DNA from: a virus
Virus record (IMG/VR): IMGVR_UViG_3300031553_000021
Coordinates: 1 to 32,598 of that record
Direction: 5' to 3' (one strand)
DNA: 32,598 nt
How positions within the stretch are numbered: position 1 is the stretch's first letter; every line of letters starts with the position of its first letter. The notes below the pieces were generated by a model. The model was not told the DNA's origin and ran no database searches. It saw only the letters and a list, made by a program, of their open reading frames with translations. Position numbers and translations under genes: made by a program. Positions 3,247 to 8,883 of this stretch are shown piece by piece.

Positions 3247-3317
3247 AAATATACATTGCTTCAAGTTGGAAAAACCACCTAAACGGGTACATCTTGGTAG
3301 AGAGTTTGAGCCGGTAA
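3243..3317 (+). pseudogene. Deoxyribosyltransferase-like gene stub
   Basis: A 24-residue frame overlaps the rusA stop (ATGA). It starts MKIYIASSWKN, the characteristic opening of phage nucleoside 2-deoxyribosyltransferase-like proteins. The rest of that domain is missing: after residue 11 the sequence no longer resembles the family and soon stops. It looks like the 5' end of a gene whose body was lost when the downstream leftward module arrived. A short match of this kind could be chance. Confidence 0.4.
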
Positions 3318-3404
3318 GACGGAAAGTTAGAACGATCTTTGAAAACTGAATATTTGGTTTTACGAAATCTCTCTCACGGTAAAGATTTGAGAGAGTAATG
3401 AGGT
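3277..3404. other. Unexplained non-coding stretch
   Basis: No convincing gene. It holds a short inverted repeat (CTCTCTC at 3370-3376 with GAGAGAG at 3389-3395) around a 12-base loop, and several purine-rich turns. It separates the deoxyribosyltransferase stub from the leftward unit and may be the scar of an insertion or a small structured RNA. I cannot assign it. Confidence 0.3.
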
Positions 3405-3436
3405 AAAAAAAGCCCCCAGGTTGGGAGGCCTGGGGG
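3405..3436 (-). terminator. Rho-independent terminator of the leftward pair
   Basis: On the minus strand a GC stem (CCCCCAGG with CCTGGGGG around a short loop) is followed by a run of seven T. It lies 10 bases beyond the stop of the leftward gene ending at 3446, exactly where its terminator is expected. Confidence 0.85.
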
Positions 3437-3445
3437 TGATGGGGG

Positions 3446-3754
3446 TTAGGCAACATACTTAGTGATTAACTCTAATATAATGCCCTGCATCGATTTGTTT
3501 TCTTGTGCTGCTTTGATTTTAAGGGCTTGGCGAATAGATAAGGGTACAATCCGGATTATGATTGCAGACTCTTTTTCGTCACCTTCCTCCTTGTGGGTTT
3601 TGGCGGCCCAGTCCTGGGGGCAGCTCATGATTGATGCTCCAACTCGCAAGGCATATACGCCCGCGGTCGACAAACAAACATTGCCATATACCCCGGCCTG
3701 GTGTTTGGCCGGGTGCTCATACAAGCCTATCGATTTCCATTTGTCGTGTGCCAT
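3446..3754 (-). CDS. Small protein with C-terminal ribbon-helix-helix-like domain
   Basis: A protein of 102 residues. The last 40 residues (ESAIIIRIVPLSIRQALKI onward, then SMQGIILELITKYVA) have the strand-helix-helix pattern of Arc/MetJ ribbon-helix-helix DNA-binding proteins. The N-terminal 60 residues are not recognised. I use the ATG at 3754, which has AAAGGA nine bases upstream. An ATG at 3817 overlapping the upstream gene is the alternative. It is the second gene of a leftward pair with its own promoter and terminator, so it may autoregulate the pair. Toxin-antitoxin or moron function is possible but not shown. Confidence 0.6.
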   Translation of the reverse strand: MAHDKWKSIGLYEHPAKHQAGVYGNVCLSTAGVYALRVGASIMSCPQDWAAKTHKEEGDEKESAIIIRIVPLSIRQALKIKAAQENKSMQGIILELITKYVA

Positions 3755-3800
3755 GACATTAAGTCCTTTCCCGCGTGTCGGATGCGCGGCCCCCAGTGAA

Positions 3801-4148
3801 TTAATATATTGTATCATCTCTATCCATCTCTTCGGTGAGCGTGAGGCCTCTAGGGCTTCTCCACTCGTTAATATGGACGTCCGTATTTATAGGGGCGGGT
3901 GGGGGGGCTGCTCCAAATTTACCGTTAATTTTGGCGTCAGCTATCAGGGCATCACAATCGATACCGTCTAGCATACCACAATCACACCGCCCACCCATCT
4001 TGGTGACTTGGCTGCAACCATCAGCATGCTTGCCGAGCGGGGCACACATGCCATATTGCGTATCAACACTAATCCTGCGACCATCATCTATAATAGCGAT
4101 TGTCTCGTTGTATTGTCCGGTCATTGTGTGCTCGTATTTAATTTCCAT
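3801..4148 (-). CDS. Hypothetical protein, first gene of leftward pair
   Basis: A protein of 115 residues that I do not recognise. It has a cysteine cluster in its middle (YGMCAPLG, ADGCSQ and GRCDCGMLDGIDC), which could bind a metal. The start at 4148 follows AAGGAG by a few bases and lies behind a clear promoter. Codons further upstream in frame fall within the promoter and are not coding. It is followed by the ribbon-helix-helix gene. The same promoter and leader type drives the first gene of the two leftward pairs in the cassette array. Confidence 0.6.
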   Translation of the reverse strand: MEIKYEHTMTGQYNETIAIIDDGRRISVDTQYGMCAPLGKHADGCSQVTKMGGRCDCGMLDGIDCDALIADAKINGKFGAAPPPAPINTDVHINEWRSPRGLTLTEEMDRDDTIY

Positions 4149-4194
4149 TTTGCTCTCCTTGTTATATGTTTGTTTTGTTATCATCTTGATTACT

Positions 4195-4222
4195 ATTATA
4201 ATCATTACAATCAACTTGTCAA
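4195..4222 (-). promoter_or_regulatory. Sigma70-type promoter of leftward pair
   Basis: Minus strand TTGACA (4222-4217), 16-base spacer, TATAAT (4200-4195): both hexamers are perfect. It sits about 50 bases upstream of the start at 4148. It is one of three related promoters in the window (others at 5975 and 6670). Confidence 0.85.
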
Positions 4223-4302
4223 GAAAAAAATGCACTTTTTTTTAAAAAAGTGAAAAAAGATTGCAGTGATTTCAATAGGCTACAAAGGGGTAAAAAATAA
4301 TT
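4215..4302. repeat. AT-rich leader repeat, copy 1
   Basis: The stretch upstream of the promoter (GTCAAGAAAAAAATGCA, then T- and A-runs, ending GTAAAAAATAATT) is closely matched at 5996-6085 and in part at 6691-6735. Each copy sits directly behind a leftward promoter. It may carry an UP-element or a transcription-blocking A/T tract. It marks the three leftward units as related although their genes differ. Confidence 0.6.
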
Positions 4303-4316
4303 GATGATTACAATGA

Positions 4317-4331
4317 TTACAATGATTGTAA
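4317..4331. promoter_or_regulatory. Operator-like palindrome TTACAA-TGA-TTGTAA
   Basis: A perfect six-base dyad with a three-base centre, in a stretch where ATTACAATG is also repeated. It lies between the leftward promoter and the rightward gene starting at 4369. A related TTGTAA also lies in the promoter at 4195-4222. It is a plausible repressor site for divergent control. No binding protein can be named. Confidence 0.4.
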
Positions 4332-4368
4332 CAAAGCACAGACATCTAATAAAAGTAGGGGTCTATAA

Positions 4369-5395: not shown

Positions 5396-5422
5396 AAAAG
5401 ATTTTCCATATATCATAGCTGC

Positions 5423-5496
5423 TAATATACAGAATATTTTCTGGTTAATACTATGCGTTAATATACAGATTCTTTCCTGCTTAATACTATGCGTTA
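5423..5496. repeat. 36-bp tandem direct repeat at the start of the cassette array
   Basis: Two 38-base units with 36-base period (5423-5460 and 5459-5496) both begin TAATATACAGA and end TTAATACTATGCGTTA. They differ at a few central positions. The second unit runs straight into GTTAGGC at 5493-5499, which is a core crossover box and the left edge of the first cassette. Repeated sites next to a single GTTRRRY core recall an integron attI, or a secondary insertion site. That is inference. Confidence 0.6.
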
Positions 5497-5673
5497 GGCC
5501 GCTTTTTTGGGACGGCCAGGTTTTCGAGAGGAAACTAATTTGAGATCAGATTTTAAAATAATCCAGTCCCTGCCGACCTTGACGGCCGGTAGGCGACCGG
5601 ATTTGATAATGGCAAGCACCCGACGTGGGGAGACGCCGAGTGCTTTGGCGGCTTGGGTGGAATTAACAATCAT
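5494..5673 (-). CDS. Excisionase-like helix-turn-helix protein, copy A
   Basis: A protein of 59 residues. STQAAKALGVSPRRVLAI, then KSGRLPAVKVGRDWII, is the compact MerR/excisionase helix-turn-helix with wing, which binds DNA. A basic tail ends PGRPKKAA. I use the ATG at 5673, overlapping the end of the upstream gene with GGGGA before it. A longer upstream frame lies over that gene. Its stop codon TAA is TTA at 5494-5496 on the plus strand, inside the GTTAGGC core box. About 117 bases (5540-5656) are identical to the copy at 6208-6324. It may be a regulator of the pair or an excision accessory factor. Confidence 0.75.
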   Translation of the reverse strand: MIVNSTQAAKALGVSPRRVLAIIKSGRLPAVKVGRDWIILKSDLKLVSSRKPGRPKKAA

Positions 5674-5941
5674 AATAATCCCCAGCATCTGGAGCATTAT
5701 GATTAAAAGTTCCATCCTTTTTCCGTGGGGTAAGATCAAAATCAGCATCAGAACGGATGTTAAAATGTTTTTCACGAAACTGGTCAAGAGCAATATGCTG
5801 AGATCGGGGGACAATCCAAAATCGATTAATTCTATCCCATCTCGCTCCAGGTATTGTTCTGATATCATCAACAGCCTCTTTCCGATATGGGAAAATAACT
5901 CGAAAATTTCCATTTTCATCTTCCTTGATTGTTATATGCAT
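5663..5941 (-). CDS. HARP-like small protein
   Basis: A protein of 92 residues. It begins MHITIKEDENGNFRVIFPYR, and the segment IPGARWDRINRFWIVP matches the core of HARP-type domains (as at the N-terminus of SMARCAL1-like annealing helicases and in small stand-alone proteins), which bind forked DNA. No helicase follows here. A strong GGAGG precedes the ATG at 5941. A perfect-spacing promoter lies 34 bases further on. It is the first gene of the leftward pair in cassette A and is followed, overlapping, by the helix-turn-helix gene. Function in the cassette is unknown. Confidence 0.65.
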   Translation of the reverse strand: MHITIKEDENGNFRVIFPYRKEAVDDIRTIPGARWDRINRFWIVPRSQHIALDQFREKHFNIRSDADFDLTPRKKDGTFNHNAPDAGDYYDC

Positions 5942-5974
5942 TTTTTCCTCCTTTTTGATTGTTTGTTTGATTAT

Positions 5975-6003
5975 AATATACACCATGCGGACTAGTTTGT
6001 CAA
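5975..6003 (-). promoter_or_regulatory. Sigma70-type promoter of cassette A
   Basis: Minus strand TTGACA (6003-5998), 17-base spacer, TATATT (5980-5975). It drives the HARP-like gene from inside the cassette. The hexamers and flanks are nearly identical to the copy at 6670-6698. Reverse-oriented cassette genes with their own promoter are typical of sedentary integrons. Confidence 0.85.
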
Positions 6004-6085
6004 GAAAAAAATGCATGTTTTTTAAAAAAAATGAAAAAAACATTGTAATAATATCAACCACTTACAAGGTGCTAAAAAATAATTT
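5996..6085. repeat. AT-rich leader repeat, copy 2
   Basis: Matches the leader at 4215-4302, including GTCAAGAAAAAAATGCA and the closing CTAAAAAATAATT. It lies between the cassette A promoter and attC1. Confidence 0.6.
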
Positions 6086-6090
6086 AAAGC

Positions 6091-6164
6091 GGCCTAACAA
6101 AAGCATTCACTCTGACCTGTCAGGGGCTTCGCCCCTTCCAGGCAGGTGATGCTTAACGTTAGCC
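6091..6164 (+). repeat. attC site 1 (integron cassette recombination site)
   Basis: Left core GCCTAAC (6092-6098) and right core GTTAGCC (6158-6164). Inside them AAGCATTCAC pairs with GTGATGCTT with one extra unpaired base, the asymmetry used by integron integrases to choose the strand. A central AGGGGC-TTC-GCCCCT hairpin completes the cruciform. The stop codon of the leftward gene ending at 6159 lies in the right core. Confidence 0.85.
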
Positions 6165-6341
6165 TTTCTTCTTCGGGGGGCGACCGGGGACACGAATGGA
6201 AACTTTTTTGAGATCAGATTTTAAAATAATCCAGTCCCTGCCGACCTTGACGGCCGGTAGGCGACCGGATTTGATAATGGCAAGCACCCGACGTGGGGAG
6301 ACGCCGAGTGCTTTGGCGGCTTGGCATGAATTAAGAATCAT
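6159..6341 (-). CDS. Excisionase-like helix-turn-helix protein, copy B
   Basis: A protein of 60 residues. Its core (QAAKALGVSPRRVLAI onward) is encoded by DNA identical to copy A over about 117 bases. The N-terminal seven residues and the tail (VSIRVPGRPPKKKG) differ. I use the ATG at 6341, which overlaps the end of the upstream gene as in copy A. Its ribosome site is weak, so coupling is likely. TAA is formed by TTA inside the attC1 right core, as in copy A. Role: DNA-binding regulator or excision factor, inferred from the fold. Confidence 0.7.
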   Translation of the reverse strand: MILNSCQAAKALGVSPRRVLAIIKSGRLPAVKVGRDWIILKSDLKKVSIRVPGRPPKKKG

Positions 6342-6636
6342 CAGAAGGGTATCCGATTGTGGCTGATTTTTCATATATCTCATCTTTTCGGTATGCAGTA
6401 TATGGCCCATTACCAACCAGAACGATTATCTCCGGGTCTGATTCAGATTCAATAAGATACCAATCATTATTTGCGCTGGAGAACCATTCAGACAGTGAGA
6501 TTTCTTTTTCAGGACAATCTGATTGTTTTTTTGTGCCGAAATCAGTATACTGGTCGTGGGCATACTCGATTAAATCTTCAATCCCCTCTAATCCATTTTC
6601 AATAGTCTGCTCTTTCGCCCATATTGTTGTTTTCAT
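6331..6636 (-). CDS. Hypothetical acidic protein of cassette B
   Basis: A protein of 101 residues, strongly acidic, beginning MKTTIWAKEQTIENGLEGIE and ending IGYPSDDS. I recognise no family. The start at 6636 follows GGAGG and the same promoter type as cassette A. It takes the position occupied by the HARP-like gene in cassette A, with an unrelated sequence, while the following helix-turn-helix gene is conserved. This suggests exchange of the first gene of the pair. An acidic DNA-mimic or antitoxin-like role is possible but unsupported. Confidence 0.6.
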   Translation of the reverse strand: MKTTIWAKEQTIENGLEGIEDLIEYAHDQYTDFGTKKQSDCPEKEISLSEWFSSANNDWYLIESESDPEIIVLVGNGPYTAYRKDEIYEKSATIGYPSDDS

Positions 6637-6669
6637 GTTTTCCTCCTTTTTGATTGTTTGTTTGATTAT

Positions 6670-6698
6670 AATATACACCATGCGGAATAGTTTGTCAA
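6670..6698 (-). promoter_or_regulatory. Sigma70-type promoter of cassette B
   Basis: Minus strand TTGACA (6698-6693), 17-base spacer, TATATT (6675-6670). The region from this promoter to the start codon is almost identical to that of cassette A. Confidence 0.85.
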
Positions 6699-6735
6699 GT
6701 GTTTTTTTAATATTTTTTCACTTTTTTTCAATAAA
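6691..6735. repeat. AT-rich leader repeat, copy 3 (partial)
   Basis: Shares TTTGTCAAG and the following T/A runs with the copies at 4215 and 5996 but is shorter and more diverged. It lies behind the cassette B promoter. Confidence 0.4.
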
Positions 6736-6786
6736 TCGTAATTTAGCAGGTAAATCAACGGATTGGGCTATTTGGCAAGATAATTC

Positions 6787-6844
6787 GCCTAACAAAAGCA
6801 TGCACTCGACCTGCTCCGCAGGCGAGTGATGCTTGGCGTTATGA
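6787..6844 (+). repeat. attC site 2 (integron cassette recombination site)
   Basis: The clearest site of the set, 58 bases long. Left core GCCTAAC, right core GTTATGA. AAGCATGCACTCG pairs with CGAGTGATGCTT except for one extrahelical G, exactly as in integron attC sites. The tip is a CCTGC-TCC-GCAGG hairpin. The next cassette gene starts 11 bases after the site. Confidence 0.9.
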
Positions 6845-6854
6845 GGTGAAATAT

Positions 6855-7169
6855 ATGCGAGACACGGGCGTACCAGATAAAAATGGAACAATAATACATG
6901 AGGGAGATATTGTCGAAGGCTGGTGTAATTCTCACAAATTAAAAGGACAAGTTTTTTATAACGGATCATCTTTTAAAATACATGAATTATATAGATGGGG
7001 TAATGGGACGTGGATCAAATCAGGCGATCTAAATGAATTTGAATATTACGGATTACAGTTGGATTATCACAAGAACGGAAAATCAGACTATGAGATTGTT
7101 GGGAATATTTCTCATAACAAATCACTGAACTCAGACCTGATTCAGGCTACGCCTGATCAGGCTGGTTAG
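6855..7169 (+). CDS. YopX-family protein (cassette C)
   Basis: A protein of 104 residues. DKNGTIIHEGDIVEG near the N-terminus and YEIVGNI near residue 84 are the two hallmarks of the YopX family, small beta-rich phage proteins of unknown function. GAGGTG lies six bases before the ATG at 6855. The last 58 bases run into attC3, so the tail SLNSDLIQATPDQAG is partly the translation of the recombination site, as in many integron cassettes. Confidence 0.8.
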   Translation: MRDTGVPDKNGTIIHEGDIVEGWCNSHKLKGQVFYNGSSFKIHELYRWGNGTWIKSGDLNEFEYYGLQLDYHKNGKSDYEIVGNISHNKSLNSDLIQATPDQAG

Positions 7170-7183
7170 TTCAGGCGTTATCT
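7112..7183 (+). repeat. attC site 3
   Basis: Left core TCATAAC, right core GTTATCT. CTGAACT pairs with AGTTCAG. An inner CCTGATTCAGGC pairs with GCCTGATCAGG, again with one unpaired base, around a TAC loop. It lies in the same orientation as the other sites, overlaps the YopX gene end and is followed by the next cassette gene 14 bases later. Confidence 0.8.
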
Positions 7184-7196
7184 GTAAGGAGTAAAT

Positions 7197-7391
7197 ATGC
7201 CAATACCAGAATCATGGGAAGTTGAAATCAGGATGTCCGGTGAAACAATATTAACAATAGGGTCGTGGGGGCTTTCTGGAATCGAAAACATTTCAGATCA
7301 TGCCGATTTAGTGAGGCATTGCGCTGATCATCTTAATGCTTTCATCGGTGCAGAAGAAACAGATAACCAGGCCCCTGAAGCCGACCACTAA
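7197..7391 (+). CDS. Small hypothetical protein (cassette D)
   Basis: A protein of 64 residues, MPIPESWEVEIRMSGETILT onward, with no family I know. AAGGAG precedes the ATG. The C-terminus overlaps attC4. Length and placement between two attC sites make it a typical integron cassette gene. The beta-rich start and helical His/Cys segment (LVRHCADHLNAF) may form a small globular domain. Confidence 0.65.
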   Translation: MPIPESWEVEIRMSGETILTIGSWGLSGIENISDHADLVRHCADHLNAFIGAEETDNQAPEADH

Positions 7392-7421
7392 GAAGCGGCG
7401 GCTTATTACCAAGCGTTAGCC
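7361..7421 (+). repeat. attC site 4
   Basis: Left core AGATAAC, right core GTTAGCC. AAGCCG pairs with CGGCTT in the inner part. The outer pairing is weaker than in sites 1-3 and 5. Orientation and spacing fit the array. Confidence 0.65.
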
Positions 7422-7434
7422 CCTTGGAGGTTTT

Positions 7435-7605
7435 ATGAGATTTACACTAAAGCAAGCTCAAGATTTAGTAGCTTTTTTCGGTGGTGATGAAGAAACCGAA
7501 ATTACTGTAGTAGAAGTTGGAAGTGATGAACCAAGTCATTCAGGCTCAGGATTATATGCCTATCTCACAGAATATCCAGATGAAGGGTCAATGTTGTTGG
7601 GTTAA
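7435..7605 (+). CDS. 56-residue hypothetical protein (cassette E)
   Basis: An acidic protein starting MRFTLKQAQDLVAFFGGDEE and ending DEGSMLLG. I do not recognise it. TTGGAGG lies eight bases before the ATG at 7435. Its stop TAA is part of the left core (GGTTAAC) of attC5, and the gene starts 14 bases after attC4. It fills the whole cassette, which supports it being real despite its size. Confidence 0.6.
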   Translation: MRFTLKQAQDLVAFFGGDEETEITVVEVGSDEPSHSGSGLYAYLTEYPDEGSMLLG

Positions 7606-7660
7606 CAAGAGCATGCACTCGACCCTCGGGGACTCGGGTGTGTGATGCTTGGCGTTATAT
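7600..7660 (+). repeat. attC site 5
   Basis: Left core GGTTAAC, right core GTTATAT. AGCATGCAC pairs with GTGATGCT except for one extrahelical G, as in attC2. ACCC and GGGT form the inner arm. It is the last site of the array. Confidence 0.85.
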
Positions 7661-7676
7661 TTCTTGAGGTAAAAAA

Positions 7677-7877
7677 ATGACAAAGGACCAGGCCATTAAA
7701 TGCATAGGAAAAATCCAGAACGGAAAATTTGACCGAAACGAAATTGTTGATCAAATTCCGCGCGGAAAAGTCGCCATTGCAAAATGGAATGACACAGTGT
7801 TCGCGTATGGGATGGAGTATGGCGCCATCATGGCCTTGATGAAGGCCTTCGGCATAAAAAAGAGCGAGCTGCATTGA
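7677..7877 (+). CDS. Small hypothetical protein (cassette F, array end)
   Basis: A protein of 66 residues, MTKDQAIKCIGKIQNGKFDR onward, with a central FAYGMEYGAIMALMKAFG. No family is recognised. GAGGT precedes the ATG. It begins 17 bases after attC5, but no attC follows it. It is therefore either the last cassette with its site lost, or the resident phage gene at the array's right edge. Confidence 0.6.
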   Translation: MTKDQAIKCIGKIQNGKFDRNEIVDQIPRGKVAIAKWNDTVFAYGMEYGAIMALMKAFGIKKSELH

Positions 7878-7888
7878 TTAAAAAAAGA

Positions 7889-7917
7889 TTGACATCCCTT
7901 AATTAAGGATGTAATGA
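7889..7917 (+). promoter_or_regulatory. Promoter with palindromic operator in the spacer
   Basis: TTGACA (7889-7894), 17-base spacer, TAATGA (7912-7917). The stretch 7892-7912 is a near-perfect dyad (ACATCC ... GGATGT around TTAATTAA with one extra C), so a dimeric repressor could sit directly on the promoter. It points at the folded region that follows and perhaps at the lysis and head genes beyond. Confidence 0.75.
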
Positions 7918-7921
7918 TAGA

Positions 7922-8085
7922 CAAAAACTGAAAAACTTATTCCGCCGCAGTAATCATGCGGCGGGATCAGGGGCGTACGAAGCCTGATTCATAGTCCCGC
8001 CTCCGATCCAGAGGCAGTGGCATAACGGCTCATCAAAGCCCGGCATTCGATTCTCAAAAGAGGACCGAACAGCCGGGCTTTTTTT
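7922..8085 (+). ncRNA. Candidate phage non-coding RNA
   Basis: Between a strong promoter and a terminator there is no coding frame but several inverted repeats. CCGCCGCA pairs with TGCGGCGG (around 7942). ATCAGG pairs with CCTGAT (around 7965-7990), itself enclosed by GGCGGGA/TCCCGCC as an alternative. GCCTC pairs with GAGGC near 8010. A transcript of about 160 bases would result. It matches no RNA family I know. It could also be a leader of the lysis operon. Confidence 0.5.
8035..8085 (+). terminator. Rho-independent terminator
   Basis: AAAGCCCGGC (8035-8044) pairs with GCCGGGCTTT (8072-8081), followed by further T. The 27-base loop contains its own small hairpin. It ends the transcript begun at about 7924. 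Confidence 0.8.
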
Positions 8086-8097
8086 ATGGGTAAATTG

Positions 8098-8161
8098 GAC
8101 GCAGATGACGCAGATAAAAACGGATATTTAAAATCCTAAAAATCCTGAAAATCTGCGTACC
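8098..8161. repeat. ACGCAGAT-type palindromic repeat
   Basis: Starts GGACGCAGAT and ends AAATCTGCGTACC, giving inverted ends around an AT-rich middle with AATCCTGAAAATC. Same family as 17892-17973 and related to 8862, 23787 and 29719. Confidence 0.75.
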
Positions 8162-8174
8162 AAAAAAGGGCATT

Positions 8175-8300
8175 ATGATTTGGCGGTTTTTAAAATTGAT
8201 ACGGCCCACGGTTTTGATTCCAAAAGATGGAATTCCGCCGGGAGCCTGGTTACGCATATCATGCGAGCCGCTCGTCTATGTATTTGTAAGCCTAAACTGA
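8175..8300 (+). CDS. 41-residue hypothetical protein
   Basis: MIWRFLKLIRPTVLIPKDGI and on, ending YVFVSLN. The sequence is basic and aliphatic at its start. AAGGG lies four bases before the ATG, and the endolysin gene starts 10 bases after its stop. I know no relative. Its place before the endolysin is suggestive of a lysis or virion accessory peptide, but that is a guess. Confidence 0.4.
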   Translation: MIWRFLKLIRPTVLIPKDGIPPGAWLRISCEPLVYVFVSLN

Positions 8301-8310
8301 AGGTTTTTAT

Positions 8311-8883
8311 ATGAAGCCTTTCCGAATTTTTATCGATGCGGGACACGGCGGCCCATCAGACAATGGCGCGAGCTGGGGTGAGAAATTTGACTACGTCGAG
8401 GAGGATGACCTGAATCTTATTATCGCGTTTCTTCTCCGCTATGAGCTGCTCCTTGCGGATTTCGATGTGCGGATGAGCCGGGAGAAAGACGAGCCGGTCA
8501 CCCTGGGGCGGAGGGTGGCGCTGGCCAATTACTGGCCTGCGGATATCTTTGTCTCCATCCATGCCGACGCCTTTCACAAAATTACCGCCAAAGGGATCTC
8601 AACACATATCTATACCCATCCCTCGCAGAATTCATTAATACTTGCCGCCTGGATCCAGGGCGGGCTTATCAAAAAATTTATCGATCATACAAATCGGGGC
8701 TTGAAAAAATCCGATTTTTACGTTTTGCATCATACCGCCATGCCGGCGGTCTTGGTGGAGTGCGAGTTTATCAGTAATCCTGAAACCAGGCGGTTTTTAA
8801 AGGAGCCCGAGCATCAGATAGAGATCGCCAGGGCCATCGGCGGAGGGATAAAGAAATATTTAGCCACGGATTCACACAGATAA
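8311..8883 (+). CDS. Endolysin: N-acetylmuramoyl-L-alanine amidase (Amidase_3)
   Basis: A protein of 190 residues that cuts the bond between N-acetylmuramic acid and L-alanine in peptidoglycan to release phage. DAGHGG (His 12) and the glutamate in EEDDLNL (about residue 31) are zinc ligands. FVSIHADA (about residue 90) gives the third ligand. LVECEFISN (about residue 150) carries the catalytic Glu. There is no signal peptide, so a holin or similar is needed. The last residues LATDSHR are read from an intergenic repeat beginning at 8862. The native end was about KKYL. Confidence 0.92.
   Translation: MKPFRIFIDAGHGGPSDNGASWGEKFDYVEEDDLNLIIAFLLRYELLLADFDVRMSREKDEPVTLGRRVALANYWPADIFVSIHADAFHKITAKGISTHIYTHPSQNSLILAAWIQGGLIKKFIDHTNRGLKKSDFYVLHHTAMPAVLVECEFISNPETRRFLKEPEHQIEIARAIGGGIKKYLATDSHR

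Follow-up and report, generated by a model that had tools for sequence, protein, structure and literature searches.

Clusters of attC sites lacking an integrase (CALINs) are already known from phages. In the main text of Qi et al. 2023 (PMC9892861), 17 CALINs are described in phages including TJE1, PH101 and P12002L, and five of six tested phage attC sites were recombined by IntI1 in experiments. The same text reports that M16-3, a Shewanella P2-like cryptic prophage, has a CALIN with its own attI. M16-3 was placed near P2-like phages and regarded as inactive by Bujak et al. 2021 (PMC8541194).

The locus analysed here resembles the CALINs of that main text in being an attC array without an integrase in a phage genome, but differs in that the array is headed by an attI, the phages are Mu-like and relatives carry different cassettes at the same locus. 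Like M16-3, as described there, it is a CALIN in a phage genome that also has an attI of host type. In contrast, M16-3 is P2-like, inactive and also has a complete integron with IntI, whereas the present phage is Mu-like, has no IntI and has several relatives. The sedentary chromosomal integrons of Desulfobacteria have the same attC type and a homologous attI, but they lie on the chromosome, often beside intI, which the phage array lacks. Mu-like transposable phages share Mu-type head genes with the window and GemA and the Mu transposase with its relatives, but the literature searched describes no integron array in such phages, and GemA is missing from the window locus. The preliminary description stated that few such arrays were known from transposable phages; phage-borne CALINs have in fact been described, but we found none reported for a Mu-like phage in the part of the literature covered, which for Qi et al. 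2023 was the main text, and a Mu-like phage may be among the CALIN carriers of that study. What is new is therefore not a phage CALIN as such but a platform headed by attI, borne by a lineage of transposable phages among which cassette replacement can be seen.

The stretch of DNA analysed (the window) spans the entire length, 32.6 kb, of an IMG/VR virus record. The late region encodes an endolysin, the large terminase subunit, a Mu-type portal, a minor head protein and a head protease, and the last three identify the phage as Mu-like. The portal matches those of Mu-type phages, for example D108 and SfMu at about 31 % and FP_Mushu at 42 %. Relatives of the terminase are frequent among viral contigs and also occur in Desulfobacterota genomes (for example an uncultured Desulfobacterium and Desulfosarcina widdelii). 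There is no match to a Mu transposase in the 32.6-kb record although the relatives L001, L044, L057 and L059 have one, suggesting that the record is probably truncated. The Mu-like genes agree with the preliminary description, but the prophage state given there is putative for what is a viral contig, and no Mu transposase lies in the record. About 1.1 kb at 3247-4368 is without a clear gene, and the longer plus-strand open reading frame tested there (3462-3971) had no Pfam match. The array is flanked by two phage genes:

4724-5395, plus strand, conserved early phage gene on the left flank (223 aa, phrog_2113)
8311-8883, plus strand, endolysin on the right flank of the locus (phrog_435, 9.2e-38)

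The early gene product is 71-78 % identical to its counterparts in L001, L044 and L057, and the endolysin 77-89 % identical to those of L001, L002 and L044. These flanking genes agree with the placement first proposed, with an early gene of a Mu-like phage on one side and its lysis module on the other. The stretch before the endolysin is also conserved (window 7885-8096; L001 6780-6986; L044 6926-7120; L002 440-640; L057 6100-6290), beginning with a TTGACA box and ending in an inverted repeat with a T run behind it. It is a candidate small RNA on these sequence features, and an Rfam search gave no match.

The array contains five attC sites, numbered from left to right. R2 is a covariance model described below, and the fold z-scores refer to each site on its own:

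6091-6164, plus strand, attC site 1 (R2 57.1 bits, E 2.9e-10; fold z -6.5)
6786-6844, plus strand, attC site 2 (R2 E 1e-9; fold z -5.7)
7111-7183, plus strand, attC site 3 (R2 E 3.5e-10; fold z -6.35)
7360-7421, plus strand, attC site 4, the weakest (R2 E 1.2e-3; lone fold marginal, z -1.6)
7599-7660, plus strand, attC site 5 (R2 E 1.3e-4; fold z -1.8)

In all five, an imperfect stem is enclosed by an R'' box (YAAC) and an R' box (GTTR). When the bottom strands were folded as single-strand DNA, extrahelical bases were seen on the L'' side of the stem, with the same polarity, in sites 1, 2 and 3 and weakly in site 5, in keeping with the preliminary description, which had claimed them for these four sites. 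A purpose-written scan for YAAC, a symmetric stem and GTTR at a strict threshold gave four matches in the whole window, all on the plus strand and corresponding to sites 1, 2, 3 and 5 only, against a mean of 0.005 matches per window in 200 dinucleotide shuffles. Ten phage attC sites align with one another through their AAC...GTTA boxes and a GACC/GG core; the window supplies five of them, L001 and L044 two apiece and L002 one.

A covariance model, R1, was built from these ten sites. R1 found 26 sites at E values up to 1 in 40 host loci; where the position of intI was tabulated these were mostly 5' of intI and pointing away from it, with the exception of L163, where the array lies behind intI. 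Site 4 also scores 43.2 bits with R1, but this site helped to build the model. A second model, R2, was made from 19 of the host attC sites that R1 had found beside intI in Desulfobacteria and contains no phage site. R2 recovered all five window sites on the plus strand (E 2.9e-10 to 1.2e-3) and every attC of the relatives, with no further match in the window or elsewhere in the 629 kb searched. Neither model gave a match when applied to 44 other phage loci (445 kb). The E values of both models are rough, and the models are not fully independent since the training sites of R2 were picked with R1; the purpose-written scan, which uses no model, found host attC sites of the same plan near intI by itself. 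The boxes and the models identify all five as integron attC sites, at the coordinates and in the common orientation originally claimed.

The attC sites divide the array into five cassettes, followed by one further gene:

5494-6158, plus strand, cassette 1, with minus-strand genes for an HTH_17 protein (about 5494-5673) and a small protein (about 5663-5941)
6159-6838, plus strand, cassette 2, with minus-strand genes for an HTH_17 protein (about 6159-6341) and a small protein unlike that of cassette 1 (about 6331-6636)
6839-7177, plus strand, cassette 3, with a YopX-like protein at 6846-7169
7178-7415, plus strand, cassette 4, with a 64-aa protein at 7197-7391, an open reading frame between attC sites
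7416-7654, plus strand, cassette 5, with a 56-aa protein at 7435-7605 (phrog_5217, 7.3e-7)
7677-7877, plus strand, gene for a 66-aa protein after the last attC site, for which no homologue or family was found

The HTH_17 proteins of cassettes 1 and 2 match the Pfam family at 3.7e-10 and 8e-11, respectively, and each cassette has its own promoter-like site, TTGACA-17-TATATT (6003-5975 in cassette 1, 11/12 positions; 6698-6670 in cassette 2). The HTH_17 gene and promoter are 93.5-95.8 % identical in DNA sequence between the two cassettes but the middle genes differ, a pattern as though the middle gene had been swapped. The two cassettes possibly represent a regulator with a variable partner, resembling a toxin-antitoxin system. 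Cassettes 3 to 5 each have one small forward gene. The cassette 3 protein matches YopX at 7.1e-5, over the cut-off, and belongs to phrog_98, while the cassette 4 protein has no family match. The cassette 5 protein has a 66 % match at L220 3554-3715, in a locus of another Mu-like phage in which no attC was found. The gene at 7677-7877 is either a terminal cassette that has lost its attC or a phage gene. No shared cassette was found when the cassette genes were sought in Desulfobacteria genomes and phages, and none was found to be common to the phage and a chromosomal integron.

There is an attI element at the left end of the array, at 5400-5493, arranged as three tandem units of which the last two have a 36 bp period:

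5400-5421, plus strand, attI unit A, degenerate, resembling what L001 and L044 have at this position
5422-5457, plus strand, attI unit B, 36 bp, ending ATGCG^TTA and homologous to host attI
5458-5493, plus strand, attI unit C, 36 bp, meeting the first cassette at the crossover point G5493^TTAGG

The local alignment score of unit A with the L001 and L044 sequences is 17, compared with 6.8 +/- 1.4 in shuffles. The chromosomal integron of genome G057 has the sequence GGTTAATATGCAGATTTTTTTCTGCTTAATACAATACGTTA between intI and its first cassette, and the left end of the array aligns with host attI with a local score of 40.5, against 13.0 +/- 2.3 in shuffles. Unit C and the TTA behind it share 33-35 of 39 bases with host attI elements (34/39 for G057 and 35/39 for the copy in G271). 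A pattern search of 389 genomes found the host-type attI at 20 places, spread over 11 of the genomes, and a reversed control pattern gave no match. Conservation among the host copies ends at CG^TT and the sequences beyond differ between loci, as expected for an attI crossover. The element at 5400-5493 thus lies at the start of the array, has the G^TT crossover point and is homologous to an attI adjacent to intI (L154) as well as to 19 other host places. The attI-like sequences of L001 and L044 do not themselves match host attI above chance. Pattern scans of the viral contigs gave no exact match, so the host-type attI was not found in the other viruses sampled.

The host-type attI (about 90 bp, ending CG^TT) is dispersed in the genomes that have it (G057, G087, G018, G263, G117, G030, G081 and others), which have as many as five copies each, most of them with no intI alongside (L166-L185). 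Several copies are followed by attC sites and some retain a short remnant resembling the start of intI.

Related phages carry different cassettes in the same locus. On either flank L001 and L044 share 78-82 % identity; the homology between them breaks off at the attI R box (L001 5043; L044 5606) and returns at the R' box of the last attC (L001 5950; L044 6063). Between these borders are unrelated cassettes, of 906 bp in L001, with three small genes including one for a Dam-like methyltransferase, and of 456 bp in L044, with two other genes. Only the right part of the last L001 attC remains. L002 has another cassette, closed by an attC near-identical to site 1 of the window (94 % identity over 71 bp). 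In L057 and L059 the early gene leads on to the next phage gene, with neither attI nor array. The locus is thus present or absent, and variable where present, within one phage lineage; the four array-bearing contigs are a small sample and mostly fragments. The preliminary description had proposed a search for related prophages with other cassettes at this locus, and L001, L044 and L002 are such relatives; the same genes are not fixed in all of them.

GemA follows the array in L001 and L044 and is also found in L057, but it is absent at this place from the window (7655-8300) and from L002 (430-900), where the arrays run straight into the pre-endolysin region. An attC pattern with GCAT arms matched nine viral contigs, with a real attC only in the L002 record, and a search through relatives of the endolysin gave no additional arrays.

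No tyrosine recombinase was found in the records of the window, L001, L002, L044, L057 or L059, which may be incomplete, and there is no match to TIGR02249 or PF00589 in the window. The array therefore has at least two attC sites (five) with no integron integrase nearby, as expected of the CALIN first proposed, and there is no intI adjoining the attI as there would be in a complete integron. It is, however, more than a plain CALIN because it begins, on the left, with an attI element that has homology to the attI sites of host integrons; by its sequence the array is attI-headed and integrase-less. IntI is present above the curated cut-off in 100 of the 192 genomes sampled from the class of D. 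widdelii (Desulfobacteria), and in several genomes carrying related prophages. The first host loci with TIGR02249 matches were mostly without recognisable arrays, and arrays were then obtained from a wider sample of the class. One relative, L186 (from the record of L040), has both a Mu transposase and a tyrosine recombinase (an open frame of 343 aa), which is unusual for a Mu-like phage.

We consider it likely that the locus is an integrase-less integron platform in a lineage of Mu-like transposable phages of Desulfobacterota, which are sulfate-reducing bacteria, served in trans by the IntI of the host. The attI downstream of the conserved early gene would act as a dock for the cassettes lined up behind it, each of which ends in an attC, and a chromosomal host IntI would act on both kinds of site, which from their sequence are predicted to be active in recombination. 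The bottom strand of attC would fold and be cut by IntI at G^TTRRRY, so that cassettes could be inserted, excised and shuffled in the phage or prophage. A different history would be a one-time capture of a piece of a host integron (attI and cassettes), illegitimate or homologous, with later recombination between phages and an inert platform. Desulfobacteria chromosomes do hold attI-headed arrays without a nearby intI that could be captured, and the truncated last attC of L001 and the duplication of cassettes 1 and 2 with swapped middle genes suggest ordinary recombination inside the arrays. The replacement borders between L001 and L044, however, are the attI R box and the R' box of the last attC, as site-specific recombination predicts, and on account of these breakpoints we regard a single capture as unlikely, though deserving of serious attention.

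It is very improbable that the phage lineage has an integron integrase of its own outside the sequenced fragments and so carries a complete mobile integron. The window, L001 and L002 are indeed fragments without known ends, but no tyrosine recombinase was found in the 39-kb record of L044 or in any other record with an array, and the gene adjoining attI in the phages is the early gene rather than intI. Least credible of all is that the hairpins are transcription terminators or other regulatory stems of the phage. They are stable stems located behind genes, but none of the five has a terminator-like match, and the conserved boxes, the asymmetric extrahelical bases, the independent model matches, the silence of the attC models in the other phage loci and the adjoining attI all argue against this.

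If the platform is served by host IntI in trans, transposition and infection would carry its cassettes into new cells and cassettes could thereby spread between hosts. The chances seem about even that a lineage of transposable phages has kept a host-type attI as a dock, borrows the IntI of successive hosts in trans to gain and swap accessory genes, and so shuttles cassettes between the chromosomal integrons of different Desulfobacterota. How the cassettes of sedentary chromosomal integrons are exchanged between cells is a long-standing question, and a phage with its own attI, no integrase and variable cassettes in its relatives is a concrete vehicle and a testable system. The locus is also a possible route for phages to gain small accessory genes, such as the Dam-like methyltransferase cassette of L001, and the differing cassettes in related phages point to cassette traffic between bacteria and viruses.
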